DNA of 64,000 nucleotides, taken from Carallia brachiata (Eukaryota; Streptophyta; Magnoliopsida; Malpighiales; Rhizophoraceae). The stretch spans positions 3,564,273 to 3,628,272 of the forward strand of contig JADCRB010000040.1 of NCBI GenBank assembly GCA_021464245.1, written 5' to 3'. A program made the position numbers and the translations under genes. Under the pieces are notes generated by a model. It ran no database searches. It was given only the letters and a program-made list of their open reading frames with translations, and was not told where the DNA came from. Below are positions 1,707 through 64,000 of this stretch, piece after piece (the stretch's first letter is position 1; every line of letters begins with the position of its first letter).

Positions 1707-2149
1707 TGATGTAGGATGAAGAATGGAACTAACGAACAGTTTAAGAATCCACCCAAAATATAGAAAAATAACAGGAATTCACCGAAAAATAGGGAAAATT
1801 TTCAGAATTTACCCGTAACACACGCATGAATCTATCTGCAAATTAACGAAAATTCATTCGTTCAAAAACTTAACATCAAATTATCAATTTTCATAAGCAA
1901 TGTCTCAATAATAAAACTGAAACTCAAACCTATTTATAAAGTTATACTGACGAAACTAAATAAGACTATAGTTAGAATTCTAACTAGAAAAGAACTCTAA
2001 GTAAGAAAATAACTTTAAATAAGATTCTAACTAGAAAATATTTGAAATAATATAATATCTAATCTAATAAAATATAAACTATAATTATTAACATAAAACA
2101 TTAATAGATTTATAAATAATAGGAATCTTCTTTTTTTATTCCTCATAAA
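1707..2149 (-). mobile_element. Solo LTR of the same family as the PDS5-carrying element
   Basis: Read on the minus strand this aligns along its whole length with the two LTRs at 18715-19166 and 21622-22074. It starts TGATGTAGGA and ends near TTCCTCATAA on the plus strand. It includes the TATA-like block CTATTTATAAAG and the shared AATCCACCC and AGAAAATATTTGAAATAA blocks. The 5-bp sequence AAATG lies immediately on both sides (1702-1706 and 2150-2154), which fits a target site duplication. No internal retrotransposon sequence is present. The usual origin is recombination between two LTRs that removes the interior. Confidence 0.85.
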
Positions 2150-2225: not shown

Positions 2226-3898
2226 TTCAAAATTTTTTTTTTTTTACATTGTGATGTCGACTGTATTTTAAAGTAGTGTTTTGCATGAAGAAATTGTAAT
2301 TTGCTTAGTAGGCCCATTTGATCATTGAAAGTTTATGTTATTTACCTCTTGATTGTTAGATACTAAAAATATGGAAGATGTCAATTGCTGGCAACCACAT
2401 TGATATTGAGTATTTTAACTTATAGGTTCGTTTTGTTTGCGGCAGTCTGCTGTTGTTTTTATCATGCTGTACATGCCTTTTTCTTCATTGTTTTGTTAAT
2501 TACAGCCTTTCCTTTTGAGAAGCCATAATTGAGGGACAAATAATTAGGCAAATAATTATATCTCAAATCGGTAATGATTCAATAATTACGTGATTTCCGT
2601 TACTTTCCATCTCTGTTGTTTTGTTAATGATATCCGTTAGCATGCAGAATCAAAGAGGGTGGAATCATTTAATTAATTGTTCCCTTTGTTCAACTGTATC
2701 TTCTTCCTTTCATCTGTCCTTAAATATTGTATGATTTATAAAATATCCGTTAACCTGTCAATAATTAGGCTGAAGTTATGGTCATCAAGTTACTTGATTC
2801 AATTTAGCCAACCTAGTTACAACTGTTTTTTTTTGTTTTTTTTTTTTTTTGTCGTTACATTTTAATAGAAAGTTTAGATGGAGCAATCAAGTTTCATAAT
2901 CCGGGCCTTTTTTATTGTAAAAAAATCTGTGACTCAAATAGTGACATTTTAGCTGTAATATTGCACATAAAAGTTTTATTTTTTTTAAAAAAAGTGTGAA
3001 TTTTTCATTTATATGCAGTAAGTCTAGCAAATAAATGGGATTATCTGGTTTTATATGTTAGATAATAGTTAATAGTATTGCTTCCCGTTAAAAAAAAATG
3101 TAGTTAAATCCCATGGTTTGGAATTACTATATTAACCACGATTCAAAGTGTAAAATGCAAAAAGATTGGTTTTGTACCATAAGAAAATTGCAAAAAGACG
3201 GGCTGAAGCTGTCTTTGTGGGTTTTCGCTTGCATTATCATAAAAAAAAAAAAAAAAGAGAAAGTACCATGATCGATGGTAGAACCCTTAAGGCATGAAAG
3301 GGCTATTGAGAACCAGCTTTCGCCAAGCTTCTAAAGAAGCTTCGGACAACATTGCTCGTCACTCTATCAGTGGCAAAAATTCTCCAAATCATGATGTCCA
3401 TTGAATCCAATTTACAATACTTCCAGAATACTGTTTCTTTGCCTGTAGATCCAAACTTCAAGTTTGAATGAAAACTCCTTGAACTTATACAAAGATGGAT
3501 ATGATAAGTGTGAACAAATCTTACGATCAGAAGCATCCACAAATATCATTTGAAGCACTCTGCCTGCGAAGTGAGAGCATCGCAAGAGAGTGAGGCGATA
3601 TTAGGAAATTGTTTTTCTTGTGCTTCTTCATTTGCAGCCACTCTGCTCTTGCTGTCTGTGCGGACTGCCCACGAAAGTCCCGCTGCAATCTGCATTAAAT
3701 CAGAGTAATATTTGGACTCAAAGTGCCAACAGAATAGGCTATTTAAATTTGCAGAATTTTGAAAAGCCAAAAAGGGGTGAAGGCTTACACAGGAACGGAA
3801 AATGATTGTGTGCTGCCATCTAATCGGTTAGACGTTGTTAATTCAACCCAAACTGTTTGTCCGTTGCCAATCTCTTTAACTTCGTATCTTTGAGTTAT
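2226..3898. other. Intergenic DNA with weak coding-like fragments
   Basis: The first kilobase is T-rich with homopolymers. From about 3300 to 3805 base composition is more balanced. Two short minus-strand frames (3546-3770 and 3303-3542) follow one another, broken by a stop. I do not recognise them; they may be a decayed exon or chance. Confidence 0.4.
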
Positions 3899-4256
3899 TG
3901 ACGTAGGATGAGTAACGAATAACAACCTTAAGTCAGAAATCTACCTACAGGACATTCAGGAATCCATCCAAAAAGTACGAGAATTCATTTGAAAAATATT
4001 CTGAAATCAATATTTAACTAACATAACAAGTCTGAAAAAATAACAAAAGCTTAGGCTCTATATATAGAGCTTAACATATAAAAACAAAATTTAAATAGAT
4101 ATGGAAAAACTGCTAATAGATAAACACGATATAATTAAATAGCTGAAATACAACATAAACTAAGATAACAATTAAATAACTAACAATATATCGTACGTGA
4201 ACCGAAACTTTCAGAATTTCTTTCGAGAGAAGAAATTTTTATTAGCAACTGCATAA
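3899..4256 (-). repeat. 3' LTR of chromovirus copy 1
   Basis: The plus strand starts TGACGTAGGATGAG and ends GCAACTGCATAA. It aligns with the LTR at 60188-60558: shared AAGTCAG, AATCCA and CCGAAACTTTC blocks and the same end. The core promoter is a perfect 16-bp palindrome around TATA, GCTCTATATATAGAGC, at 4055-4070. The adjoining purine tract on the minus strand (TTGGAGAGGAA) is the expected polypurine tract just upstream of a 3' LTR. Confidence 0.8.
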
Positions 4257-4296
4257 TTCCTCTCCAATTGAAAAAACTCGACTCTGTCAAGGAAGA

Positions 4297-5845
4297 CGCT
4301 AAGTAAGCATGAAGGAGCTCAAGATCCATCAATCAAAGATCATTCGAAACCCAAGAAATTCTCCTTGAGAAGAAGCAACGCATTCATCATTCAAGATAGT
4401 CTCGATATCCTCAGCATGTAGAGAAAAAGTAGGCGCCTTGGACACAACAGTACGTATAGACAGACTAGAAGGTAAAGATGGAGGATCGAAAGTGCCTCAG
4501 TGAGGTATCAAATCCTTCACATTAAAAATAAGACTAATATTCAAGTCAGCTGATAAATCAAGTAAATATGCATTATGTCCAAACTTTTCAATAATGAAGT
4601 ATGGGTCAATGGCTAGGGCTTGCAACTTTTTGGGCTTGTTTTTGGGGAATCGCTCTGGATGAATGTAAACCATGACAAAATCCACATTAAAATGTTTATC
4701 TCGACGATGCACATCAACAACAAATTTATAATCAACATTACTTAAAACAATCGTGCGTATAATCTCAGCATGCAAGTTATGAATGTGTGTAACAAATTTT
4801 TCAACAGGCTTAGAAGATTGAAGATCATAAGAAAGGGGAACAAAGTTAACAGGTATGCGATTGGTATAACTATGAACAATCTCAAAAGGACTCTTACCAG
4901 TGGATTGATTAATAGAATTGCTGCAAGCAAACTCAGCTGTTGGTAAAATCAAGTTCCATTTACCTTGTTTCTCACCCACTAAATACCTAAGTAAATCTCT
5001 CAAACTTCAGTTAACTATCTCATTTTAATCATTTTTTTTAGGATGAAATGCATACAAAAATTTCAAACAAGTCCCAAATAATTTCCAAAGTGTCTTCCAA
5101 AAGTAACTAACAAATTTAACATCTCTATAAGATATAATAGAAACAGGCAAACCGTGCAATCTAACAACTTCTCTGAAAAACAACTTTGCAATATGAGATG
5201 CATCAAGTGGACTTATTACATAGAATGAAGTGAGCCATTTTAGAAAATCTATCCACAACTAGAAAGATACAATCATGACCACGAGCTGTTCTAGGCAAAC
5301 CAAGCACAAAATTCATACTAACATCATGCCAAGGTGCATGCGGAATAGGAAGTGGTGTGTATAAACTAGTGTTATGCTTTTTAGCCCAAGCAACTTGACA
5401 AGTGTGACACTATGACACAATGCTGACACATCTCTCTTTAAGGAAGACCATTAAAACTTATCCCCAATAAGTGCAATAGTCTTATCCTCTCTAAGTGACT
5501 AGCTAACCCATCAACATGTATTTCCCAAACCAAAAAGTCACAAAGTGATATACGTAGAATGCACAACTTGTTAGCTCTAAACAAAAATCTATCATGCACA
5601 ACAAAATCAACATAGTCCCTACGATTTTCATCACTAACCGACTGAAATATAAGACCAAAATTAGGATAAGTAGGGTAATCATCATGCAACCTCTCAAAAC
5701 CTACAACATGAGCATGTAACTTTTGAAAGACACACACAACTTGACTTAGACTATTAGCAGCTTTATTTTCCATACTAGAACAATGTTTAAGTACAAAAAA
5801 ATAATTCTTTAGGAATTCAATCCATTTAGTATGCTTAGAATTCAA
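4297..5845 (-). pseudogene. Integrase and deleted chromodomain region of chromovirus copy 1
   Basis: The integrase core and C-terminal region lie in broken minus-strand frames: 5438-5845 (RNase H end and N-terminal integrase), 5025-5258 (core, [18 protein letters not shown]) and 4497-5003 (C-terminal half ending NVKDLIPH). In copy 2 this tail continues into a chromodomain. Here about 46 bases are missing around 4351, which removes the FLVQWKG core and shifts the frame. The remainder, EDIETIL, and the later DLRL-like tail are still recognisable. Confidence 0.75.
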
Positions 5846-6880
5846 TTTATTTTGAATTCAAATAACGCAATGCCAAATGGTCAAAAAACAAAACAAACCA
5901 TTTTGGAAGTAAATAGTACCTCCAATGATGCAGAGACAAAACAATAGCATAAAACTCCTTATCATATGTAGAATACTTATGCTTTGCTTTATTGAGTTTT
6001 TTGTTGAAAAAAGCAATGGGGCGTCCTTCCTAACTCAGAACTCTTCCAATGCTAACTCCCAAAGCATCACAAGCAACTTCAAACACCTTGTTGAAGTTAG
6101 GATGGCTTAGAATGAGAGTTTCACTGATTTGTTTTTTAATGTCTTTCAAAGCTATGGAAGCTTTCTTAGACCACTGGAAATCTCTTTTTTTTCAAGCAAT
6201 CAATGACAGGGGTCATAATAGTACTGAATCCCCTAATGAACCTTCGATAGAAAGAGGCAAAACCATGGAAGCTACGGGCATTAGTAAGAGACTTAGACTT
6301 AGGCCACTCTCGAATGACTCAAACTTTTTCAGAATTCACAGCTATACCATGGGCAGAAATAATAAACCCTAAGGATAATACCTCAAGTTGCAAAATGTAC
6401 ACTTTTTAAGGTTAGCATATAGTTTAACTTCCCTAAGAGTGAGGAAAACTAACTGCAAGTAATCCAACTGTTCTTTTTCAAACTTACTGTAAATTAGGAT
6501 ATCATCAAAGCGGACCACTAGAAACCGATTTATGAATGGCTTCAGGACATGAGTAATAACCCTCATAAATGTACTGGGAGCATTTGACAACTCAAAAGGC
6601 ATGACTAGCCACTCATATAGTCTAGTCCATCATGCGTCTTAAACGCAGTCTTCCACTCATCCCTACGCTGAATGCGTATTTGATGATACCCACTGCGAAG
6701 GTCTATCTTGAAATACCAATTAGAACCAATTAGCATATCCAATATGTCCTCTAGCCTAGGAATGGAAAATCAGTAGTTGATATTAATCTGGTTGATAGCC
6801 CGACTTTCAATAGACATCCTCCATGAACTATCTTTCTTAGGGGTCAACAAAGCAGGGACAACAAAAGGACTAAGGCTATG
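5846..6880 (-). pseudogene. Reverse transcriptase/RNase H of chromovirus copy 1
   Basis: The frame 6369-6602 reads [13 protein letters not shown]...FDDILIYS, the palm of a Ty3/gypsy reverse transcriptase. The catalytic YFDD box of the sister copy is RFDD here, losing the aromatic residue before the two aspartates. RNase H follows toward lower coordinates but is broken by stops. Further N-terminal RT blocks (fingers, [13 protein letters not shown]) are recognisable at about 6650-6850 in shifted frames. Confidence 0.75.
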
Positions 6881-7594
6881 TCACACAAAACCCTTAGACA
6901 GTAATGCTTCCACTTGCCTATTTAACTCTTCATGTTCTTTTGGGTTCATCCTATAATGTGGAAGATTAGGCAGTTGTGAACTAGGAACTAAGTCAATGAC
7001 ATGCTTTATGTTCCGTATGCGTGTTAGCTCATTGGGAAGGTCATCAGGCACAATGTTCATGAATTTCTCTAGCAATTTATCAAAAGTAGGAGGAATATCA
7101 GCTCGAGGTATGCTAGACTGTGGACTGACCTCTTTAGAAACAACAACCTCCAAGTAGTCATTATTCCCTAACGCCCTTTCAAAGCCCTTATGGTCTAAAA
7201 TGTGATGGCCTTTATTGGCAGAAACTAGGGGAAGAGATTTGAGTTTTAACCTCGTGTCCTTAATAGAGGGCTTAGTTGAGTTCAAGATGATGTTTTTGCC
7301 TTCATACTTGAAGATATAGGTATTCTTCTGACCATAATTGGTCACATTAAGGTCGTAGAGCCAAAGACGGCCTAGGAGAATATAGGCTACATTCATAGCC
7401 AAAACATCACAATAAACCTTATCCTTATAATCAACTAATTGAATGGGAACTAAGCACCGCTCAGTGACTGGCAATGTGGTTTTATTCACCCAAGCTACAC
7501 TAAATAGTCGCAGCTGTGGTTCTGCATCAAGGTTCAATCTTGGAAGGGCATAATTCCCAACAACATTCATGGTACTCCCTCCATCAATAACCAT
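6881..7594 (-). pseudogene. Protease and N-terminal RT of chromovirus copy 1
   Basis: The 237-residue frame starts MVIDGGSTMNVV. It holds the aspartic protease active-site loop (D-G-G here and in copy 2), then a block with LLGRLWLYDLNVTN and a linker. It ends in the N-terminal RT segment [25 protein letters not shown], which marks the start of the polymerase in this lineage. The frame is open but isolated by stops at both ends. Confidence 0.8.
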
Positions 7595-7662
7595 CTTACA
7601 ACTACGATCTCTAGATTTAATGTAGGTGTGGAATATGCTTGTACGTTTTCACGTATCATTGT

Positions 7663-9010
7663 CTACAATAGTAACAAAACACACCTAACAACAGTGTAGT
7701 GCTGGTCATCATCATCGAAGTCCTCTATGAATTTATCATCTTCACTAGAGTACTTTAAAGGATCAAGAACATGATTTTCACTCTTTAAGAGATCATCAGA
7801 CTCTTTCTCCATAACGAGAGCATGGTCAGGACAATGAGAGGCAATAGAACCCTTTTTATGACAACGAAAACACTCAACAGGAGAGTTAATCGCACGAGAT
7901 TCAAAAGTAGAGCCTACTGGATGAGAAGTGGTAGGACTGGAATGCAAAAGAGTGAACAGATTGACAGATTTGGATTAAGCAGTGAAACCAAAAGAAAATG
8001 AAGTTTTGGTTGCACATGCTTCAATAGAGGGGGACGAGAGCATGAATGAAGAGGTCTTGATGTACTTGTCAACCTCTAAGGCTTTGTGATAGGCCTCTTC
8101 CAAAGAACTAGGCCCAAACAAAAGAACTCACTTTTGGATCTCAGGCTTGAGACTGTTAACAAAATGATTGACAGTAAGGTAAGGTTCTTCATACGACTCA
8201 TATACAAGGAGAAGCTCTTTGAATTTAGACATATAGGCAATGACACTAGAAGTAGTTTGCCTAAGATTTAAGAGTTGAGTATATAACCGATTCTTATGAT
8301 AGGTGAGGACATATTTAGCTTTGAGTTTCATTTTCATGACTTCTTATAGGATAATGAGAGGCTCATCTAAATGCTTAGACTTACGAAGTTCATTCAGCCA
8401 AAATTTTCCAGTTGACCCTGCAAATTTTATCTTTGCAAAATGGACACGATCAAGATCATTTATGCCATATGACTCAAAATAATCCTCTAAACTATCAAGC
8501 TAGTCCATAAACACTTCAGCATTCAATTCACCATTATATTCAGGAGTATCTAACTTGATATTTCCAGTGATGTCACCGTGATCTGGACGTGCATGTATGT
8601 GTTGTGGCCTATGATACCCATCATGAACTCGGGTATGCACATCGTCACGCAAATCATAAATAGGATGCCTACGTGTACCTCTAGGGATTTGTCGACTAAG
8701 CGATGAATCATGATAAAAATCACCTTCATCAATATGTTCATGCAGGTTTCCATAAGGGGAAAACCTAACAGTTGGTCTCGAGGTGACTAAATTCTAAGGC
8801 ATAGGAAATTGGGCATTGATAGAACCCTCAACATGGGTTGCCCCAATTGGCTGTCCAACAAAGTCATCCACTGGTTGTTTGTCCAAACATTTTAAAATAG
8901 CATTTAATTGGGTAGACAAATTGGCAAAATCGTTTCTAAGATTGTTCATGTTAGACTGGTGGGCCGATTGTGTGACTTGAATTTTAGCTCGAAGCTCATC
9001 TATTTCAGAG
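7663..9010 (-). pseudogene. Gag of chromovirus copy 1
   Basis: Broken frames encode a typical plant gag: an N-terminal coil, the capsid-like core at 8128-8337 (KYVLTYHKNRLYTQLLNLRQ) and a zinc knuckle at about 7828-7869. The knuckle reads CFRCHKKGSIASHC; the expected histidine is serine, so only three of four zinc ligands remain. An acidic linker then leads toward the protease. Several stops (for example near 8340 and 8500) interrupt it. Confidence 0.75.
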
Positions 9011-13641: not shown

Positions 13642-15155
13642 TTATTTCACATACCTTACGAAAAGCAAAACAAAATGTTAATAAAAAGATTGGACTGAGT
13701 AAAAGAGGTCATAAGTGAATTAAATTCATGAATTGAGTAATTGAAAAAATTGATTCAAAAGTTATTTAAATTTGGAGTATTTCACACGTAACATGTCAAT
13801 ATTAAGTAATTTGTTATTAGAATTTTATACCTACGTTAAATCAGTCCGAATTAAATTAAAAAATGAGCTGCTTTTAGTAACTGCAAAAAACATGAAAAAG
13901 GTCGTAGAAGGCTAGAGTATTTCACGTAACTTGCAAAAAATAAAACAAAATGTTAATAAAAAGATTGGAATGCGTAAAAGAGGCCATATGTGAATTAAAA
14001 ATTCATGAATTGAGTAACTGCAAAAATTAATCCAAAAGTTATTTAAATTTGAAGTATTTCACACGTAACATGTCAATATTAAGTAATTCGTTACTAGAAT
14101 GCTATATTTACATGAAATCAGTCCGAATTAAATTAAAAATGGGCTGCTTTTAGTAACTGCAAAAAACATGAAAAAGGTCGTAGAAGGTTAGAGTATTTCA
14201 CGTAACTTACAAAAAACAAAACAAAACGTTAATAAAAAGATTTGATTACGTAAAAGAGGTCATATGTGAATTAAAAATTCATAAATTGAGTAACTGTAAA
14301 AATTGATCCAAAAGTTATTTAAATTTGAAGTATTTCACACGTAACGTGTCAATATTAAGTAATACGTTACTAGAATGCTATATTCACGTGAAATCAGTCG
14401 AATTAAATTAAAAAATGGGCTGCTTTTAATAACTACAAAAAACATGAAAAAGGTCGTAGAAGGCTAGAGTATTTCACGTAACTTACAAAAAATAAAACAA
14501 AATGTTAATAAAAAGATTGGATTACAGAAAAGAGGTCATATGTGAATTAAAAATTCATAAATTGAGTAACAGCAAAAATTGATCCAAAAGTTATTTAAAT
14601 TTGAAGTATTTCACACGTAACATGTCAATATTAAGTAATTCGTTACTAGAATGCTATATTTACGTGAAATCAGTCTGAATTAAATTAAAAAATGGGATGC
14701 TTTTAGTAACTGCAAAACACATGAAAAAGGTCGTAGAAGGTTAGAGTATTTCACGTAACTTACCAAAAACAAAACAAAACGTTAATAAAAAGATTGGATT
14801 ACGTAAAAGAGGTCATATGTGAATTAAAAATTCATAAATTGAGTGACCGTAAAAATTAATCCAAAAGATATTTAAATTTGAAGTATTTCACACGCAACAT
14901 GTCAATATTAAGTAATACATTAATAGAATGCTATATTCACGTGAAATCAGTCCGAATTAAATTAAAAAATGGGCTGCTTTTAGTAACTGCAAAAAACATG
15001 AAAAAGGTCGTAGAAAGTTAGAGTATTTCACGTAATTTACAAAAAACAAAACAAAACGTTAATAAAAAGATTGGATTACGTAAAAGAAGTCATATGAAAA
15101 TTAAAAAGGTTGTACAAGTATGAAGTATTTCACGTAATTTTATAATTTTAAAACA
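13642..15155. repeat. ~276-bp tandem satellite array, about 5.5 units
   Basis: The landmark AAAAAGATT recurs at 13683, 13958, 14234, 14510, 14787 and 15064, a spacing of 275-277. Each unit also has TATTTCACACGTAACATGTC and, about half a unit later, AGTATTTCACGTAACTT, so the monomer may itself derive from a duplication. The first and last units are partial and more diverged. Confidence 0.93.
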
Positions 15156-16484
15156 TTAATTTTTGACTAAAAATTGTTTCTCTAATTTTTTAAAAAAATT
15201 ACAATCATCATTATAGCATTGAAATTGATTTTAATATTGTTACGTTTATATTTTTTAAGAACCATTTAATTTTAAAATCATCGTTTTTTCAAAATGAAAC
15301 ATCTATATGAATATACTTTTTTGTTTTTTGCCATCCATATGAATATCAATTTAGTAGAAAATAATCAACAAAAAATCAAATAGACCAAAATTTTAAAATA
15401 TTAAAGTGGGACAATATTGTAAATTCTTGTTAGTGGACATTGGAGGGAAATCTAAAACTAGATTCCCTCCAATATGGAAAAGGTTATAAAAAAAAAAAAA
15501 AAACTGGTGACCGGTGCCTCCCCTTTTTTTTTTTTTTTTTACTTTTATATGGTAACCTGCAACCTGAATAACTCATCACTCTCTTATATGAGTTAATTTA
15601 ACTCCCCTAAAAAAGGAGTAAAATTAGAAAACCCCAAAATTATAAATTAAAATCAAAGCACAAGTAGAAGAAGAGAGAAGAAGGGGGGGGGGGGGGTGGG
15701 AGGATTGGCCAAGAGAGAACAAAGAGAAGTTGGGGAGGATAATTTAGATGGGATATTGAAATTCTCTTTGTTTGGTAGCCAAGAGAGAAAGCACGAAGGA
15801 GGTCGGAGTAGGCAATTAAAGTGGGCCATTGAAATTAATTTATTGTTATTGTAGTATGGCAAACGGGCTTTGACAAAAAGGATTGCCAAAATTTGCAAGT
15901 TAATATCCTGGGGCAAGTGTACGGGTCTTCTTAAATCAACTTACTTGGGCGACAAAAGGTGTTCCCATCTATTAAGTTTATGGATCCTTTTCTTTGCGTA
16001 AAATTAGTGGCTCATAGCACATTGTCTTTAACCATAAGTGAATTTAAAGTGCATTTCTTTATTTTTAAATTCTTTTTTTCATCGTGCATATGGAAGACTT
16101 GTCCTTAGAATATTTGTTTGGAGGTTCCAAAAATATATGTCCATATTCGAAAGAGAAAAATCAAAGAAGATTTGTGTATATACGTCCTGAAAATATTGAG
16201 TTCAAGTATTCTATTTAAAGATCTAAAATCTTTTTATCTAGGGTAGGTGCATTTCTTTACCTGAAATAAAATTCTAAACCTTTAGCTGGTATATAAACTT
16301 TCCAGGTATTTTAGCAAAAATGACAAATTTCTTAAAAATAGGCTTTTTTTTTTTTCCAAATTTTTAAGTTTTTACTTAAAATCAAATTTTGTGAAGGTGT
16401 AAATATATCTAGCCTAAAATATGTTCAAAATCAGATCAAAATTTTTCCCAAAAAAAAAAAAAATACAAAGCGAGTGATCTTCGT
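15156..16484. other. Intergenic DNA with a G14 run
   Basis: Apart from the hairpins at 15439-15541, this holds a homopolymer of 14 G at 15683-15696 inside a purine-rich block, and AT-rich sequence. No gene is supported. Confidence 0.5.
15439..15541. repeat. Two adjacent hairpin-forming inverted repeats
   Basis: The first arm pair is ATTGGAGGGAAATCTA / TAGATTCCCTCCAAT (15439-15473). Then come 16 A residues (15488-15503), a GC-rich loop containing GGTGACCGGTGCC, and 17 T residues (15524-15540). Either could form a stable cruciform. They may be the end of a foldback element. Confidence 0.7.
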
Positions 16485-18709: not shown

Positions 18710-18714
18710 CCTAT

Positions 18715-19166
18715 TGATGAGGAACAATGAAAGAATATCTCTATTATTTAAAAATTTATTTGTATCTCATATTAATAATTATATTTTATATTTTATTATG
18801 TTAGATATTATGTTATTTAAAATATTTTCTAATTAAAATCATATTATAAATTATATTTTTACTTAGTTAATATGTTTAGAATTATATTTTTAATCAGTTT
18901 CAAATTTTATTTATAATTGATTTAGTTAATCTAACTCTATAAATAGATTTTAATATTAATTTTATTATTCAGACATTACTTATAAAAATTAATTATTAAT
19001 GTCAGAATATTTTTCAAATAAATTTTCGTATTTTATGAGTGAATTCATAGGTTTGTTAAACATAAATTCCCTTAATTTCTCTATTTTCAGGTGGATTCCT
19101 ATTATCTTTCTATATTTTAAGTGGATTTTTAAGTTATTCATTAGTTCCGTTCTTTGTTCTACATCA
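18715..19166 (+). repeat. 5' LTR of the PDS5-carrying element
   Basis: It is 452 bp with TG...CA ends. A TATA-like CTATAAATAG lies about 230 bp from the start. It differs from the 3' LTR at many scattered positions, so the insertion is not recent. Confidence 0.9.
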
Positions 19167-19169
19167 GTT

Positions 19170-19182
19170 TGGTATTAGGACA
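19170..19182 (+). other. Primer-binding-site-like sequence
   Basis: TGGTATTAGGACA lies 3 bases after the 5' LTR. It resembles the initiator-Met tRNA complement TGGTATCAGAGC used by many plant LTR elements, with mismatches in its second half. Confidence 0.6.
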
Positions 19183-19229
19183 AAACTTCGATTTAAAACC
19201 CATGTTCGTTTTCAATCAAAAACTCGTTT

Positions 19230-19870
19230 TTGATCCTAAACTACACAAAACAAACATCCAAATCTTGTTCTTCACGTCAATTTTTGAAACAAATTGCAAA
19301 AAAAAAAACTTCAAAATTCACAAAAAAAAACCACCAAAAAAAGACCTTCTGCTCATCTGCTGCCAGCCACCACTGCTCGTCGGATCTCCGCCTTCACCGT
19401 CGGACCGTCGCCGTGGGCCGTCGTCTTCGGTCACCGGCCACAGCCCAAAACCACTCCATCAGACCTGCCGTCCCCCGATCTCCATACCCCCAGCCTCCAC
19501 GCACTGGACATCCCACCGAAAAATTCCCAAAACGCTGCCCTAAGTATCTGCCTTCTACTTCGCTTTGCCACCCTCCACTGCTCTATTCTCCGTCGCCGTG
19601 GAGTCCAACCGTTCTAGAAAGGTCCAGCGACCATCGATCTGTCCTTTCCAGCCATCAACGCCCCGCTTGGCAACCTCGGAATCGCCGTTCATCGACCTTT
19701 CGCCCAAGAGCCGTCGGTTCTTTCGTTGTTCCTCCGCGCCCAGGCCGCTACTCCTTCGCTGACGCGTCATCTGACCACTGAGGGACGCTCCCCTAGTCCC
19801 CTGCCCTTGCCAGCGCTCCCCTGACCTCGCTGGAGCGCACCGCCTCATGCACCGGAGTTCTGGAATCCGA
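19230..19870 (+). other. GC-rich leader with an open frame (19230-19781)
   Basis: This block is far more GC-rich than its surroundings. It is rich in CCG, CGG and TCG and holds overlapping frames in all three phases. The longest, 183 residues, is Ser/Pro/Arg-rich with no recognisable domain. That composition is typical of retroelement 5' leaders rather than a real protein. Purine-rich sequence follows from 19920 to 20270. Confidence 0.5.
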
Positions 19871-20270
19871 CTCTCCAGCGCTCCTTTTTCCTATTTTCTT
19901 TAATTATTTTTGATATTTTAATCAAACTATTTTCAGAGTAAAAAAAACAGAGAGAGAAAGTCAAAAAAAAAAAAAAGAAAAAGAAAAGGTGAGAAGAAAG
20001 AGTGATTTATTTTTTCAGTCCAGGCTTTCGAGTTAAAATTCAAATTTGAAGTGTCATAGAGTGTCTGTGAAAAAAAAAAATAAAGAAGAGTGATTTGTCT
20101 TCTAGTTTTAGAGTTCGGTTAATTGAGTGAGTGTTTTGAGCGTCTTTGAAAAAAATATATCTAGTGTGTTTTGTCAGTCAAAATATGTTTCGTTTTTAGT
20201 CAGTGAGTGTTTTATCTTTCAAAAAAAAGATTGAAAAAAAAAATCTATTATTGTAGAAAGATAAATTTGG

Positions 20271-21066
20271 TATGTTGGACAAAGGCTACAAAGTCCTCCC
20301 ATTTCCGCTAGAAGCTTGCGATCTCTTCTGCAACAAATTGAAAATTATTTGAGAAGAATGAAGCATTCAAGTACATTACCAATGGTTTTAAATCGGTTGA
20401 TAAAAGCATTTATCGAGCATCAATTTTTTCAACATTATGATGCTGATGTGAGAGTCTCAGTTGCTTCATGTCTAAGTCAGATTTTGAAGATTACTGTTCC
20501 GAATTATTTTTCTTATGATGACGTAATGAGAGATATTTTTGAGCTAATTATATCGTCATTTGAGAATTTATGTGACGATACTAGTCTTTCTTATAGTAAG
20601 AGAATATCGATTTTTTAAACTTTTGCAAAGATGCAATTTTATTACATGAAGATGGATCTTAGCCGTGACTCATTGATTATTGAGATGTTTCACCGCTTTA
20701 TCACTGGTATAAGGAATTATCACTTATGGAGAATTCTTATGCTAATGGAAGAAATTGTGATATGTGTGCTAGTAGACAGTAAGAATATCTCTTAGTTTAC
20801 TTTTCCCGCTATTGTATAGTTTGGATATGGTTTGTGCTAAGATTTGTCCTATGTCTTATAAGTTGGAAGAACGAGTATTTAGAAGTTGTGCTTTTAAGAT
20901 TCCGCTATACTTGGTATATACTTTCAATTTTTTTGGTCTATCGTTGAATCGTTAGAGTAATGTTGTTACTACCATATGCCAAGATATGTTGGAAATTGAT
21001 GAACAACTTGATGTTCATGGTGATCGATATAAAGTTGTTGCTCATGTTGATGATGGTACAAGCTGA
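20271..21066 (+). pseudogene. PDS5-like (sister chromatid cohesion cofactor) fragment, intronless and broken
   Basis: PDS5 proteins are HEAT-repeat cohesin regulators. The frame from about 20271 reads VGQRLQSPPISA then LLQQIENYLRRM, LIKAFIEHQFFQHYDADVRV, ASCLSQILKITVPNYFSYDD and FELIISSFENLCD. These match the N-terminal HEAT region of plant PDS5 in order (opening SPP motif, DxDVRVxVASCLxEIxRITAP, the Y-D-D block). After a TAA at 20616 the same frame continues TFAKMQFYYMKMDLSRDSLIIEMFHRFI. After a frameshift near 20790, LSLLFPLLYSLD and KLEERVFRSCAFKIPLYL follow. A last piece ends VAHVDDGTS. Plant PDS5 genes have many introns; none are seen here, so this derives from an RNA copy. The premature stop and shift make it a pseudogene. 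Confidence 0.8.
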
Positions 21067-21610
21067 TTTTTGTATTCCAATTAGTACATTTGATGAGGTC
21101 ACTCAACTTGCAGTCGACTTAGTCCATATTGGTATTTTAGAATTGGCATCTGATGATCGTCCTCTTCCCATTGAGGATAAGCTAGAAATAGTAAAGTTAA
21201 AATTGTCAAATGAAGTTGCTTAATTAGAAGAAGTTGATCACATCATTGATGAAACGACAATAGATGCATCTTTACCTCTAGAAATTGATTTGATTGTTGA
21301 TGAATCTATCACACCAATTGTGAGTAATGAGACTACAGATGTTAAAAGTGTTGATATTTTATCATATATTGTCAGACCAGCTGCGACTGAAGAGGTTACA
21401 CAAATTGTGAGTGAAGAGGTTATACAGATTGCACTGAATGCATAGATTGTGGAAGAAATTGATTTTGTCATTCCTTTGTAGAGTCAATTTTTGATCTTTT
21501 CTTGAAGTTTGTTTCATTGCTATAGCCTCCTAATTTTTCTGAAGATTTTTCTCTTGTTTGTTCTTTCTCATTCTTTTGCACTTTAAAATTCGAGGACGAA
21601 TTTTTTTCAA
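21067..21610 (+). pseudogene. Acidic C-terminal coding-like tail of the LTR element
   Basis: Frames from 21067 read FCIPISTFDEV...KLEIVKLKLSNEVA, a stop, then LEEVDHIIDETTIDAS... with recurring (I/V)DE and EEV(T/I)QI units. A further frame ends KFEDEFFSNRGE immediately before the polypurine tract. The terminal motif resembles the last codons of other plant LTR-element ORFs. The acidic repeats match no family I know. Several stops break it. Confidence 0.45.
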
Positions 21611-21621
21611 ACAGGGGAGAA
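21611..21621 (+). other. Polypurine tract
   Basis: ACAGGGGAGAA directly precedes the TGATG start of the 3' LTR, the expected place for plus-strand priming. Confidence 0.8.
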
Positions 21622-22074
21622 TGATGGGGAACAAGGAAAGAATATTCTTATTATTTAGGAATTTATTCATATCTTATATTAATAATTATATTTTATATTT
21701 TATTATGTTAGATATTATGTTATTTAGAATATTTTTTAATTAAAATTATATTACAAGTTATATTTCTACTTAGTTAATATGTTTAGAATTATATTTATAG
21801 TCGATTTCAAATTTTATTTATAGTTAATTTAGTTAGTATAGTTCTATAAATAGATTTCAATGTTAGTTTTATTATTCAGACATTGCATATGAAAATTAAT
21901 TATTAATTTTGGAATATTTTTTGAGTTAATTCTCGTATTTTGTAGGTAGATTCTTGCGTTTGTTATAAGTGAATTCTCGTAATTTTTCTATTTTCGGGTG
22001 AATTCCTGTTATTTTTCTATTTTTTTTGGTGAATTCCCGAATTATTTGTTGATTCTGTTATTTGTTCTACATCA
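21622..22074 (+). repeat. 3' LTR of the PDS5-carrying element
   Basis: It is 453 bp, starts TGATGGGGAAC and ends TTCTACATCA, and is collinear with the 5' LTR. Compared with the 5' LTR it has a longer T run near the end and scattered substitutions. Confidence 0.9.
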
Positions 22075-22079
22075 CCTAT

Positions 22080-25424: not shown

Positions 25425-28400
25425 ATGGTAAACAGCAAGGGGTACCATTCGCATTACCATTCCAATTGGAATTCTCATGTGATGATGGTGAGAGGCTCTT
25501 CTTCTTCTTCAGCAGCAGCTGCCAGATCTCTCCTCAGACCACCCTCTCCTTCTGCTGTCGCCCGCTACATCATCCTTCTGTTTGCCTTTTCACTCTTCAT
25601 TTTTCTGCTCAGCACCAGACACGTTTTGGAAGATGAGTCAAAACCTCTCTTCTTTGCCAAATCTTCACCTCAGTCCCGATCCCAATCGCAGTTTCAATCT
25701 CTGGAGGTGTGTTGCTTTCTTTGTTTTTCATGATTCCTCCCCCACTCGCCCACAAATTTTTGATGGCGGGAAAATTTCAGATTGTGGTGTCTAGGAGATT
25801 CAATATTTGCTTTTGGTTGGTGGATTTGTTGACAAGGGTCATCAAATGATTGTTTTGTTTTTATGGTTAACCATTTCTGGTTTTTATTTTTTATTTTTGA
25901 TTTTCTATTTTAAATTGTAATCTTGGGTGGGTTTGTCTCTCTCTTTGATTTAAAAGACATTTTTCTAGGAGTTGGTTTCTGCAGTTACAGATGGGATTCA
26001 CTGCATATTTCCAAAGAGTGTTGCCATCTTGGGTTTATTGGTGCAGTTTCCTGTCTTTAGTTATGAGGAGCAATGCTGTTTAGTTATGATTGCTAAGTGT
26101 AAACATAGCGGGATTTGCTGCATATTTCCAAAGAGTGCTGCGATCTTGTGTTTGTTGGTGCAGCTTCCTGTCTTTAGTTATGAGGAGCAATGCTGTTTAG
26201 TTATGATGGCTAAGTGTAAACATAGCCTCCATGGTCACCACTCCTTCCATCTTTGAAGAGCAGATATTAAGTTCCTCATCCTCACATTTTTGGTTTCGTT
26301 CTAATCGTAGGAAGTCAGATTTTAATAGCTGGGAATTGGGTGGTGCTTTCAGTGATATGTTATCTGATAGCTAGTTATCTATTGTCCATTGGAATGGAGG
26401 CTTAACTCTTTGAATTTTCGTGTTTTCAGTTGATAGTATTGTGAGTTTGCAATCTGCATCTTTTGGAAAGTACGTTAATTGTCCTCTACATGTGTAATAC
26501 GTTGCCTTTCAAATTTCATATGGGAAATTCCAATAACCAAATATATAGAATGGAAAACATTGGCATTCGTGTAGATGTATAGCTATTATCATTTGGTGAC
26601 GAACAATTTCAATTTATTGTGGCTGCCTCTAAGTTGAAGTCATGAAAAAAATATACTATCACAGCAACGCATATGTAAAATAAGCTCAAAGAGTAAAATG
26701 ATGAAAAAGGATTACAACGCCAATTACTTCTTTTCTAAGGCTGGATTTCCTTGCCTTTGCATAAATAAAGTAAATATGTTCAGCAAAAGAAGTTTACATT
26801 TGGATAGAGAATTAAACAGGAAATAAAGTCACTCCACTATGCTGCTATCCTGCAGATGCAAGAAACATTGTGGAATTCTCCCCTCATCTATGGATTTCAC
26901 CCTTGTTTAAAGCCTACAACTAAATTCAAAGGTTAGGTTTATATACAACTTTGTCATTCCTTTTTTATTTTCGTGATCCATTCATTTGACCAATGTTTCT
27001 CTTTTAAAATAAGCACAATCCTTTTGACTTTCACTTGCCGGAGAAATGAATGCAGATCATTACGTGTTTGGGCATTCATGTTTGCTTTTATTTTGGAAAT
27101 CTATATGCATATATATATGTATGTAGGTATGTTTGCATGTTTGTATTTATGTATGTATACACATAAATTGTAAGAAAGTTGGAGAGTGGTATTCTTTGCC
27201 GAACTCTTTAATGAGAATAGTCAAGATGACCTGGTGAACTTAGCATACCAATGGAAAAAGTCATCTTCACAAGGGGAATTTGTTCCGTGGAGGCTAGAGA
27301 AGCCATAAAGAAATCAAAGGCGGGAAAGCATGAGTGAAATTTGATACTGATTGAAGTTTGAAAGTCTTTAGGGGAGGAGTGACTTGATTGACTAGGCTCT
27401 GTGATTGGATACTAAAGAAGGGGAAAATGCCTAATGAGTGGAAGATGGGGATACTTCCCATTGTACAAGAATAAGGGGGAATCCAATATGGCCTTAACTA
27501 TCGTGACATTAAACTAATGAGTCATTCATTGCTTGCATATGAAGGTATTCGTCTAGTAAATCAATGACTAAAGCTATCTCCCTTAAGGTTGGTGGAAAAT
27601 ATCAAGAAAAAGAAGCTTGATTTGCACAAGGTTTTTATTAACCTAGAGAACATATATGATATAGTTCCCAGGAAAGTGTTATGGTGGATAATGAATGGGA
27701 GGAAGGTTCCCATATTATGTAGTCATCTAGCAGGGTTATGTATGAACATGCCGTAACTTGTGATATTGCCTTGATAGATGAGACTAGGAATGGTTGCACC
27801 GCAAATTAGAATTATGAAGAGACACCCTAGAATTTAGAAGTTTTCAGTTGGTTACACAAAAACAAATGTATGCATTTTTATTTTAGTAATGCTAGGAGTG
27901 AGATAGGACATACTACTACAATAGATGGTACAATGAGCTTTCAATGTGATCGATTCACTTATTTATGTTTTATTATTTAGATGGATGGAAATATAGAGAA
28001 TGTTCTTCATAGGACCAGGGCTAGATGACAATTGGAGATGTGCGACTAGATGTTAGAATGACCCTAAAATTTTCATTATGTTGAAGGGTAAAATTTACAA
28101 ACAACGACTAGGTCAAAGGTTGTGAGTTTTAGGCTTTTAATAAACAACATGTGCAAAAATGAGTGGTAGAGAACAAAATGTATAGACGGATTTGTGGCTA
28201 CTCTGGAATGGATTAATAAGAAATGAGATTTTTTGTGGTAAAGGGGGTGTAGCTTTGATTGGAGGGAAGTTTAGGGGGTACCATTTGCATTGCTTTAGAA
28301 ATGTCCAATGCAGACGTATAAATATTCCAATCAAGATTGTACATGTCCAAAGTAGCCTTAAAAATATGACAATTAAGAGGGGGACAAATCTAGAAAGATG

Positions 28401-60187: not shown

Positions 60188-60558
60188 TGATGTAGGACGA
60201 ATAGGAAGAACAACCTAAGTCAGGAATCCACCCGACAACTAATCACTCAGAAATCTACCCAAAAAGAAACGAGAATCCACTCGAGAGAAAATTTGTTGTA
60301 ATTAATATTCAATTGCATAAGTCTCGAAAATAATAAAGGTTCAAGCTCTATTTATAGAGCACAACAGATAAATCCTAAATAAAAATAAATAATTGCTAAC
60401 AGATAGTTACGGAAATAACTGAAAAATAAACACGTACTTAACACATCCTAAATAAGATAGAATCTAATAACTGAATAACAAATCCTATCCTACGTGGACC
60501 GAAACTTTCGAATTTCTTCCGGGAGAAGAAATCCCTATCAGCAACTGCAACTGCATCA
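60188..60558 (-). repeat. 3' LTR of chromovirus copy 2
   Basis: The plus strand starts TGATGTAGGACG and ends GCAACTGCATCA. The polypurine tract on the minus strand, CCGGAGGGGAA, abuts it. The core promoter is again palindromic around TATA: GCTCTATTTATAGAGC at 60345-60360. 60183-60187 (GCGTG) is the candidate left target repeat; the right one lies beyond the window. Confidence 0.88.
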
Positions 60559-61024
60559 TTCCCCTCCGGTTGAAAAGAACTCGACTCCGTCGAGAAGACG
60601 CCAAGTAAGCATCAAGCAACTCAGGATCCATCAATCGAAGATCATCCTTAGGAACCCAAGTAGCATCAGAGGCAGGACGACCTTTCCACTGAACAAGAAA
60701 ACGTCGAAATCCTCCATGAGAAGAAGCAACGTACTCATCATCCAGGATAGTCTCAATATCCTCGGCACGTGTAGCAAAAGTAGGCGCCTTTGGCACAGCT
60801 ATACCTGCAGAGAGACTAGAAGGCAGCGAAGGAGGCTCGAAAGTGCCTCGGTGAGGTGTCAAATCCTCCACATTGAAAATAGGACTAATATTCAAGTCAG
60901 CTGGTAAATCAAGTAAATATGCATTAGGTCCAAGTTTTTCAATGATGGAGTATGGGCCAATGGCTCGAGCTTGCAACTTTTTGGGCTTATTTTTAGGGAA
61001 TCGCTCAGGACGGATGCGAACCAT
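60485..61024 (-). pseudogene. Integrase C-terminus and chromodomain of copy 2
   Basis: The 179-codon frame begins at MVRIRPERFPKNKPKKL, passes the integrase C-terminal module (GPYSIIEKLGPNAYLLDL, NISPIFNVEDL) and ends in a chromodomain: EDIETILDDEYVAS, RRFLVQWKGRPASDATWV, DDLRLMDPELL. The W-K-G core and the following SDATWV helix start are intact. It is frame-shifted relative to the upstream integrase frame (overlap 60892-61024). Confidence 0.85.
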
Positions 61025-61951
61025 GACAAAATCACCACATGAAATTGTTTATCTCGACGATGTACATCAGCAGCAAGCTTATAATCAACATTACTTAAAG
61101 CAATCTTGCGCCTAATCTCAGCATGCAGGTTATGAATGTGTGTAGCAAAATTTTCAGCAGGCTCAGAAGAACGAAGATCAGGAGGAAGGGGAACGAGGTC
61201 AACAGGTGTGCGAGGGGTATAACCATGTACAATCTCAAATGGACTCTTACCAGTAGAACGGTTAACAGAATTATTGTAGGCAAACTCAGCTGTTGGTAAA
61301 ATCAAGTCCCAATTACCTTGTTTTTCACCCACTAGACACCTAAGTAAGTCTCCCAAACTTCGGTTAACTACCTCAGTTTGACCATCTGTTTGGGATGAAA
61401 TGCAGATGAAAATTTTAAACAAGTCCCAAACAATTTCCAAAGTGTTTTCCAAAAATAACTCACAAATTTAACATCTCTATCAGACACAATGGAAACAGGT
61501 AAACCGTGCAATCTAACAATTCTCTGAAAAATAATTTTGCAACATGAGATGCATCAGTGGACTTATTACATGGAATGAAATGAGCCATTTTAGAGAATCT
61601 ATCCACAACCACAAGGATGCAATCATTACCACGAACTGTCCTAGGCAAACCAAGCACAAAATCCATACTAACATCACGCCAAGGTGCATGTGGAACAGGA
61701 AGTGGTGTGTACAAACCAGTGTTATGCTTTTTAACCTTAGCAACTTGACAAGTGCGACACTGTGACACAATTCTAGACACATCTCTCTTCAAGGAAGGCC
61801 AGTAAAACCTATCCTCAACAAGTGCAATGGTCTTATCCCTTCCTAAATGACCAGCTAATCCACCAGCATGCATTTCCCAAACTAAAAAGTCACGGAGTGA
61901 TGTACGTGGAATGCACAACTTATTAGCTCTAAATAGAAATCCATCATGCAC
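60892..61951 (-). pseudogene. Integrase core of copy 2
   Basis: 61460-61951 holds the zinc-binding segment ([12 protein letters not shown]...CRTCQ) and the first catalytic aspartate block ([12 protein letters not shown]... [15 protein letters not shown]). 60892-61452 holds the later core with [18 protein letters not shown], the block containing the catalytic glutamate. The break at about 61455 lies between them. Confidence 0.85.
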
Positions 61952-62051
61952 AACAAAATCAACATAGTCCCTACATTGCCATCACAAACAGACTGAAATA
62001 TAAGACCAAAATCAGGACAAGTAGGGTACTCATCATGCAATCTCTCAAAAC

Positions 62052-62543
62052 CTACAACATGAGCATGCAACTCTTGAAGAACACACACAACCTACTCAGA
62101 GCATCAGCAGCTTTGTTTTCTATACCAGAACAATGTTTAAGCACAAAAGAATACTCATTAAGAAATTCAACCCATTTAGCATGCTTAGCATTTAATTTCT
62201 TCTGAGAATTCAAATAACGTAAAGCTTGATGGTCAGAAACAAACAAATCCTTAGGAAGCAAATAGTACCTCCAATGACGCAAAGATTGAACAACAGCATA
62301 AAACTCCTTATCATATGTAGAGTACCTTTGCTTCGCTTCATTGAGTTTTTCGCTGAAAAAAGCGATGGGGTGTCCTTCCTGACTCAGGACTCCTCCAATG
62401 CCAACTCCCGAAGCATCACAAGCAACTTCAAACACCTTATTGAAGTCGGGATGACTCAGAACGGGAGTTTCACTGATTTGCTTTTTGATCTTAAAAGCTA
62501 TGGAAGCTTTACTAGACCACTGAAATTCTCCTTTTTCAAGCAA
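62052..62543 (-). pseudogene. RNase H of copy 2
   Basis: 163-codon frame: [87 protein letters not shown]. These are the usual Ty3/gypsy RNase H blocks, including the catalytic aspartate of CDAS and the YDKE glutamate. Confidence 0.88.
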
Positions 62544-62642
62544 TCAGTAATAGGGGTCATAATGGTACTGAATCCCCTAATGAACCTCCGATAGAAGGAG
62601 GCTAAACCATGGAAGCTGCGAGTTTCAGTAAGAGACTTAGGC

Positions 62643-63503
62643 TCAGGCCACTCTCGAATGACCCAACCTTTCAGGATCCGCAGCTATACCACGAGCAGAA
62701 ACAATAAATCCTAAGAATAACACCTCAGACTGCAAGAATGTACACTTTTTAAGGTTAGCATACAGTTTAGCTTCTCTAAGAGTAAGGAAAACTAACCGCA
62801 AGTGATCTAAGTGTTCTTTCTCGGACTTACTGTAGATAAGGATGTCGTCAAAGTAGACCACTAGAAACCGATTTATGAATGGCTTCAGAACATGAGTCAT
62901 AACCTCATAAATGTACTAGGAGCATTTGATAACCCAAAAGGCATGACTAGCCACTCATATAATCCATCTGCGTCTTAAACGCAGTCTTCCACTCATCCCC
63001 AGGCCGAATGCGTATCTGATGATACCACTACGAAGGTCTATTTTAGAATACCAACTAGAACCAGCTAGCATATCCAACATATCCTCTAGCCTAGGAATGG
63101 AAATCGGTACTTGATGGTGATCTTGTTTAGCTCGACTATCAACACACATCCTCCATGACCCATCTTTCTTAGGGGTCAACAAAGCAGGAACAGCACAAGG
63201 ACTAAGGCTATGTCGTACAAAACCCTTAGACAACAATTCTTCTACTTGCCTATTTAACTCTTCACGTTCCTTTGGGTTCATCCTATAGTGTGGAAGATTA
63301 GGTAACTGTGAACCAGGAACTAAGTCAATGGCATGCTGTATGTCTCGCATGGGTGGGAGCTCCTTGGGAAGGTCATCAGGCATAATATCCACAAATTCCT
63401 TGAGTAATTTATCAAAAGCAGAAGGAAGAACAGCTCGAGGTGTGCTCGAATGTGGAATAACCTCTTTGGAAACAACAACTATCAAATAGTCATTACTCCC
63501 CAA
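62643..63503 (-). pseudogene. Reverse transcriptase of copy 2
   Basis: 62955-63503 holds [31 protein letters not shown] and [10 protein letters not shown], then shifts out of frame. 62643-62900 holds [11 protein letters not shown], the intact catalytic box. The frame break between 62900 and 62955 and another after DLRSG prevent a continuous polymerase. Confidence 0.85.
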
Positions 63504-63546
63504 CTCCCTTTCAAAGGCCTTATGATCTAAAATGTGAAGACCTTTA

Positions 63547-63996
63547 TTAGCAGAAACAGGGGGAAGAGATTTGGGTTTCGGCCTGTGTCCTTAACAGAGG
63601 GTTAGCTGGGTTCAGAATGATATTCTTGCCTTCATACTTGAAGACATAAGTATTCTCCCGACCATGATTGGTCACATTAAGGTCATAGAGCCAAGGACGA
63701 CCTAAGAGAATATGAGCCACATCCATGGGCAGAATATCACAATAAACCTTATCCTTATAATTACCTAACTGGATGGGCGCTAAATACCGCTCAGTGACTG
63801 GTAAGGTGGTTTTATTTACCCAAGCTACACGGAATGGTTGCGGATGTGGTTCTGCCTTAAGGTTTAATCGTGAAAGAGCAGATTTCGCAACAACATTCAT
63901 GGTACTCCCTCCATCAATAACCAACTTACAACTGCGATCTCCAGATCGAATGTAGGTGTGGAATATGCTTGTTCGTTTCCACGTATCATTGTCCAC
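63547..63996 (-). pseudogene. Protease region of copy 2 (partial)
   Basis: 149-codon frame with LVIDGGSTMNVVAKSAL (the active-site loop), VAWVNKTTLPVTE, AHILLGRPWLYDLNVTNHGRENTYVF. It is frame-shifted near 63547 from the RT frame. It is continuous to the window edge. Confidence 0.82.
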
Positions 63997-64000
63997 AACA

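Follow-up and report, generated by a model that had tools for sequence, protein, structure and literature searches.

A PDS5-like cohesin-cofactor sequence inside a dispersed family of LTR elements in Carallia brachiata

A PDS5-like cohesin-cofactor sequence lies inside an LTR element in the genome of Carallia brachiata, in a window of 64,000 nucleotides (assembly GCA_021464245.1, contig JADCRB010000040.1, positions 3,564,273 to 3,628,272 of the forward strand). The sequence derives from a spliced host PDS5 mRNA that was captured by the element, within which gag-pol was not found. Taken as a whole, the explanation which we consider highly probable is that a non-autonomous, probably gypsy-related family captured the spliced message, kept its reading frame open during amplification, and left each copy to decay after insertion.

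A preliminary description of the window, made from its letters, proposed that the insert follows the N-terminal HEAT region of PDS5, and profile and structure searches agree. The stop-free stretch at 20265-20618 matches the Pfam PDS5 family at E = 5.3e-16 (58 bits, cut-off 27), with all other Pfam families at 0.006 or worse, and the top match in a PDB search is a solved Pds5 structure (5frp, E = 2.8e-8). Pieces of two other copies match the same PDS5 model (PF20168) at E = 5.5e-27 (Pfam positions 27-198) and 1.8e-24 (positions 44-203). A generic HEAT identity is ruled out, at E = 0.2 vs 5e-16 for PDS5. The description had named a retroelement ORF and a generic HEAT repeat as the outcomes that would speak against PDS5; the top protein matches are instead PDS5, far above generic HEAT, and in the genome itself the closest intron-bearing matches compared are PDS5 genes. 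A protein search with 215 aa of one copy gave no match at E ≤ 0.001, full-length PDS5 being outside the length range searched. The breaks noted in the window copy are real and amount to seven stops and four frameshifts against the family frame. Its extent, first given as 20271-21066, does contain captured PDS5, but the true extent is longer, at about 20241-21460: the captured segment begins at the start of the host gene and runs some way into the region that follows the HEAT repeats.

The element occupies 18715-22074 on the + strand (Table 1), and both of its LTRs begin with TGATG and end with ACATCA (TG..CA). The pair is 83% identical over its full length and 88% across the first 300 positions. 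Repeats and flanking sequence together confirm the complete LTR pair and the CCTAT target duplication that had been reported; the duplication is perfect in the window copy, and one of five bases differs in the flanks of another copy (L009). The GC-rich block of the leader has 56-59% G+C vs 35% in the window. The primer binding site TGGTATCAGAGC, presumably of the tRNA-Met type (a tRNA-Met-like primer site), is found in four of 20 other copies, and the pattern TTTGGTATYA in 10 of 20, nine times after the 5' LTR; in copy L015 both are located after the 3' LTR. Pfam matches were absent from the five leader ORFs scanned, and neither gag nor pol, including an own reverse transcriptase (RT) and integrase, was detected in a scan of eight element ORFs that included these five. 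The window also holds a tandem array of units of about 277 bp, 64-96% alike, at 14000-15245 (the search began at 14000), and a 117-bp unit in two tandem copies (93% alike) at 25993-26226.

Table 1. Features of the PDS5-carrying element and related sequences in the window.
Feature	Positions	Strand	Basis or remark
Target site duplication, left copy (CCTAT)	18710-18714	+	sequence
5' LTR (TGATG..ACATCA), 452 bp	18715-19166	+	direct repeat of 21622-22074
Primer binding site TGGTATTAGGAC	19170-19181	+	sequence, three bases past the 5' LTR
Leader with GC-rich block (19315-19915); pieces common to other copies	19182-20240	+	
Captured PDS5 segment, beginning where the start codon stood (ATG lost here) and spanning the N-terminal HEAT region; frame decayed	20241-21066	+	
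Continuation of the same reading frame; part aligns with host PDS5 after the HEAT region	21067-21460	+	
3' untranslated stretch, ending in purine-rich AACAGGGGAGAA (21610-21621)	21461-21621	+	
3' LTR, 453 bp	21622-22074	+	direct repeat of the 5' LTR
Target site duplication, right copy (CCTAT)	22075-22079	+	sequence
Lone LTR of the PDS5-element family	1707-2148	-	73% to the 5' LTR
Decayed gypsy-type gag-pol element, ends TCCTACGTCA	3899-8075	-	candidate kin of the enzyme supplier
Second copy of the same gag-pol family, ends TCCTACATCA, runs off the window end	60188-63998	-	

The description also envisaged a dispersed, LTR-flanked family, and the genome (337.5 Mb in 164 contigs) supports this. 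Searching it with the insert DNA gave at least 42 matches of 70-100% identity, the window copy included, which merge to 40 places. A genome search with the Pfam PDS5 model gave at least 57 matches and added six places that are continuous across the host intron positions; sequence was read for L029, L032 and L035, whereas for the remaining three the lack of introns is judged from coordinates only. An intronless PDS5 piece is thus present at 46 loci or more, copy counts being lower bounds from the best candidates scored. Of the 39 other DNA-match places, 20 were read with flanks (three more in shorter loci), and paired direct repeats, 77-86% identical, surround the insert at 15 of these 20 loci as well as in the window copy; their ends are resolved in some of the 15. 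The remaining five, in which a paired LTR was not detected, count against the proposed explanation. The recurrent order is LTR, primer binding site, leader, PDS5, tail, 3' UTR and LTR, with some pieces absent in some copies. An ordinary processed pseudogene that landed once inside an LTR element would also be intronless, as the insert is. However, the same insert, tail, 3' UTR and LTR neighbours recur at many separate loci, and this shared order refutes the lone pseudogene, to which we give practically no credence unless the original capture itself is meant by it.

Some copies form near-identical pairs on different contigs (L010/L011 at 97.5%, L019/L020 at 98.6%, and C117:969010 with C132:415931 at equal scores), which are either recent segmental duplications or uncollapsed haplotypes. 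LTRs of the family also occur away from PDS5 copies. No PDS5 interior lies beside the lone LTR of the window, and two further such loci (L047 and L048) show only short interior stretches in 4.0 and 3.5 kb.

The source of the insert is seen in two host genes, L041 (contig C117) and L042 (contig C91), in which its sequence is split by introns and matches exon by exon; once its exons are joined, the L041 N-terminus gives a Pfam PDS5 match at E = 6.6e-54. Each of the 21 copies compared spans three L041 exon junctions, where the introns measure 176, 655 and 283 bases, with a longest insertion of 14 bases, and the first host intron appears to be absent from the copies too. Because the host introns are missing at three positions in all 21 copies, it was a spliced mRNA that was captured. 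Copying started from about the start codon, since the copies (MSTILERQIWYAG...) align with the host first exon (MATTEKELEKQLLETGHRL...) and the in-frame ATG is kept in 10 of 21. At the other end, comparison of five copies' tails with the host sequence after the HEAT region gave 0, 0, 0, 1 and 1 of 500 shuffles as good. The suggestion that a reverse-transcribed PDS5 segment replaced gag-pol is supported by both the lost introns and the lack of any gag-pol match. Identity to the copies is 66-70% for L041 and 54-57% for L043, a more distant host gene that is weakly aligned in two of four exons, while L041 and L042 are 88% identical to each other.

The host genes have two peculiarities of their own. 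In L041, the stretches at 2867-2926 and 3056-3115 are similar, successive and exon-like, possibly mutually exclusive exons, of which the insert matches the downstream one; L042 seems alike. Judged by eye, there are also apparent one-base frame breaks in L041 near 3870 and in exon 2 of L042, reflecting either assembly errors or loss of function. Since both genes show such breaks, some single-base indels in the copies may likewise be assembly errors, by which stops are less affected.

In the tree, the 21 copies stand apart from the host genes (100/100) on a host-to-copies branch of 0.33. L029 and L035 group as a subfamily of their own (100/100), which carries the LTR, tail and UTR pieces. This subfamily is read as an earlier branch because it is nearer to L041 than to the main copies, the trees being rooted by midpoint only. 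Together, the tree and the shared features favour one capture followed by two expansions, an early and a main subfamily. Across 16 LTR pairs, K2P divergence is 0.112-0.229 with a median of 0.160 (0.183 for the window pair), which at substitution rates of 7e-9 to 1.3e-8 per site per year suggests that the insertions are roughly 4-16 My old.

The long host-to-copies branch could also mean that capture took place not long before the burst, from a fast-evolving PDS5 paralogue that was not sampled, in which case the recency of the capture would by itself account for the open frame. The host genes compared were L041, L042 and the partly weak L043, with a further Pfam match on C133 outside the comparison, and such a paralogue might account for part of the branch, to the detriment of the explanation preferred here. 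Against it, the early subfamily with the same LTR, tail and UTR pieces branches before the main burst, and early and main copies share a two-residue shortening relative to L041 at one position. A recent capture of this kind therefore seems rather unlikely to us.

Evidence on the reading frame comes from an alignment of 1,357 well-filled columns (452 codons) in 19 copies, the near-duplicates L010 and L020 being dropped from the counts. The reading phase is unbroken over all 1,357 columns, and none of the 452 codons has a stop in at least half of the copies, the most widespread stop being in five of 19. Of such codons, the other two forward frames have 26 and 48, and each reverse frame has 20-25. 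Individually, all 21 copies examined are broken, with 0-13 stops per copy (mean 6.6; 126 in 19 copies) and a mean of 5.05 frame-shifting indels. Since no stop is shared by half of the copies and the phase is unbroken despite these single-copy lesions, the amplifying lineage very probably kept the frame open. This has statistical support: terminal branches have a median of 0.12 and the branch to the main burst measures 0.14-0.19, on which about 8-10 stops are expected at the rates of the single copies and no shared stop is seen (Poisson probability of zero, about 4e-4 to 3e-5). When random changes of the host sequence are used instead, which is a cruder approach, the probability comes to 0.12, 0.029 or 0.0016 for the different lengths assumed; at a looser threshold, one main-branch change would be a stop if placed alone in the L041 codon. 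Once inserted, the copies decay neutrally, judging by singleton variants that are spread evenly over the codon positions (224/229/223).

Whether the encoded protein mattered is a separate matter from the open frame. Changes on the main branch fall at 17/177, 10/183 and 16/145 sites of codon positions 1, 2 and 3, of which 15 are synonymous and 28 are not; all possible single changes of the host sequence give 3.57 non-synonymous to 1 synonymous. The stem ratio of positions (1+2)/2 to position 3 is 0.91 (0.58-1.51) vs 0.28 between host paralogues. Polarised with L043, stem changes are 21/151, 19/179 and 8/90, with eight synonymous and 40 not. Among shared variants, the third position is highest in the PDS5 part (p = 0.02) and lowest in the tail (p = 0.035), with no clear third-position excess overall (p = 0.076). 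We reject strong purifying selection for this protein, as the codon-position tests point to weak amino-acid constraint at most, and this weakness weighs against the main explanation as well.

An open frame with nearly unconstrained amino-acid changes, as the stem ratio indicates, is what would be seen if the frame were kept for reasons of the RNA, such as protection from nonsense-mediated decay or packaging, with no role for the protein itself. The main branch, with 28 non-synonymous to 15 synonymous changes, lies somewhat below the chance ratio, however, and many plant LTR elements that lack an ORF spread well. We regard this reading as a real contender, albeit one with less than an even chance of being correct.

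At the other extreme, the PDS5-derived protein of the element might have acted on cohesin, for instance by competing with full PDS5, loosening cohesin and easing integration. Ty1, for which a link with cohesin is reported, is a copia-type yeast element and not a plant gypsy element, and this distance, together with the weak amino-acid constraint, speaks against such an action. In its favour are the frame kept open, the capture of the N-terminal region only, and the increase of Ty1 transposition in several yeast cohesin mutants (PMC4378997). On balance an action on cohesin appears unlikely.

The regulatory proposal in the preliminary description, that the family serves as an siRNA source or decoy against host PDS5 genes, is unsupported at present. 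At least 46 loci do have sequence in common with host PDS5 exons, one review describes captured fragments of maize as reservoirs of siRNA (PMC13317346), and all 27 copies compared contain a 21-mer within two mismatches of L041 or L042, a count made without a shuffled control. However, identity to L041 is no higher than the 66-70% given above, an exact 21-mer is shared with L041 or L042 exons in just two of 27 copies, and an open frame would be unnecessary for such a role. A present siRNA role thus looks weak on these sequence comparisons, and we judge the proposal very improbable.

With no enzymes of its own detected, the family would have depended on another element, and candidates for relatives of this supplier are found in the window and beyond. 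The two gag-pol elements of the window are 83% alike, and both end in TCCTACRTCA, like the LTRs of several PDS5 copies. In the first (3899-8075), 85-119 bp near the 3' end match the PDS5-element LTR at 71-75%; the second (60188-63998) has no BLAST match to that LTR. At L015, TTTGGTATCAGAGC stands immediately after the 3' LTR of a PDS5 copy and leads into a decayed gag-pol interior. This interior has an RT of Ty3 type (7q5b, Ty3 Gag-Pol, E = 4.1e-13) and a match to an integrase zinc-binding domain that falls slightly short of the cut-off. Interiors of this type are abundant: among the best 40 of 282 candidates, the 39 others start past the LTR and primer binding site. The PDS5-element family is non-autonomous and probably gypsy-related, and cross-mobilisation by a related gypsy element fits the chimeric locus and the short similarity. 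Within the gypsy RT region of L015, 6561-7329 contains a 385-bp tandem duplication (94%).

The sequence of events that we propose begins with an ancestral element that would have taken up a spliced mRNA copy of a short PDS5 gene in place of gag-pol, beginning at the start codon, taking in the N-terminal HEAT region and continuing into the tail beyond it. The route may have been template switching between co-packaged RNAs, and the enzymes of a gypsy element with a related LTR may have done the copying, as suggested mainly by the one chimeric locus. The family would then have expanded as the early and later the main subfamily, with a frame of about 430-450 codons staying open in the amplifying lineage until each insertion, after which the copy would decay neutrally. 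A shortened PDS5-like protein was probably encoded and translated, since the frame stayed open, and the ORF was most likely kept because its translation or its product aided the element. That the family took over a cohesin cofactor and retained it as its sole protein during both expansions, with the shortened PDS5 acting on cohesin for integration or expression, is a tentative extension of these comparisons which we hold to be doubtful.

Among non-autonomous LTR elements, LARD and TR-GAG elements have a non-coding interior or one with gag, and take their enzymes from a related element. The PDS5 family resembles them in this dependence; unlike them, its interior is a host gene. Capture of host genes by plant LTR elements has already been described, and the review PMC13317346 covers Bs1, a TRIM with a P450 piece, tomato Rider/sun, rice and sorghum captures, and KIU. 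No capture of PDS5 appeared among the open-licence papers listed in the literature searches, and PDS5 and cohesin have 0 occurrences in that review. We place the PDS5 family as a new form of this known process.

As described there, Bs1 of maize is an LTR element with pieces of an ATPase and two other genes, and the PDS5 family is like it in being an LTR retroelement with transduced host pieces that form an open frame (PMC13317346). Unlike Bs1, the family has a single gene, no gag-pol found and dozens of old copies, and its frame appears to have stayed open over two expansions. The captures in rice and sorghum likewise place host sequence within LTR pairs, with selection reported on some, but they come from genome-wide surveys of many captures (surveys cited in PMC13317346). 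The Arabidopsis TRIM with a cytochrome P450 fragment is also a short non-autonomous LTR element with a host fragment; in the passages on it, it is described as a 3' transduction and no kept frame is reported (PMC13317346). KIU, an Ulp1 domain in the VANC genes of Vandal MULEs, is similar as a captured host domain that an element family has kept, its function being unknown, and differs in that it sits in a DNA transposon with the domain inside an element gene (PMC13317346).

How and why plant LTR elements retain captured genes is described as open in the same text (PMC13317346). In Carallia brachiata, a single captured gene segment supplies the one ORF that can be recognised in a family of at least 46 loci, and its frame very probably stayed open along a branch on which neutral copies would gain some dozen lesions or more. 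Because PDS5 regulates cohesin, and cohesin mutations raise Ty1 transposition in yeast (PMC4378997), the matter lends itself to a direct test. The PDS5 family hence lets one ask whether elements retain captured host genes for their own use.
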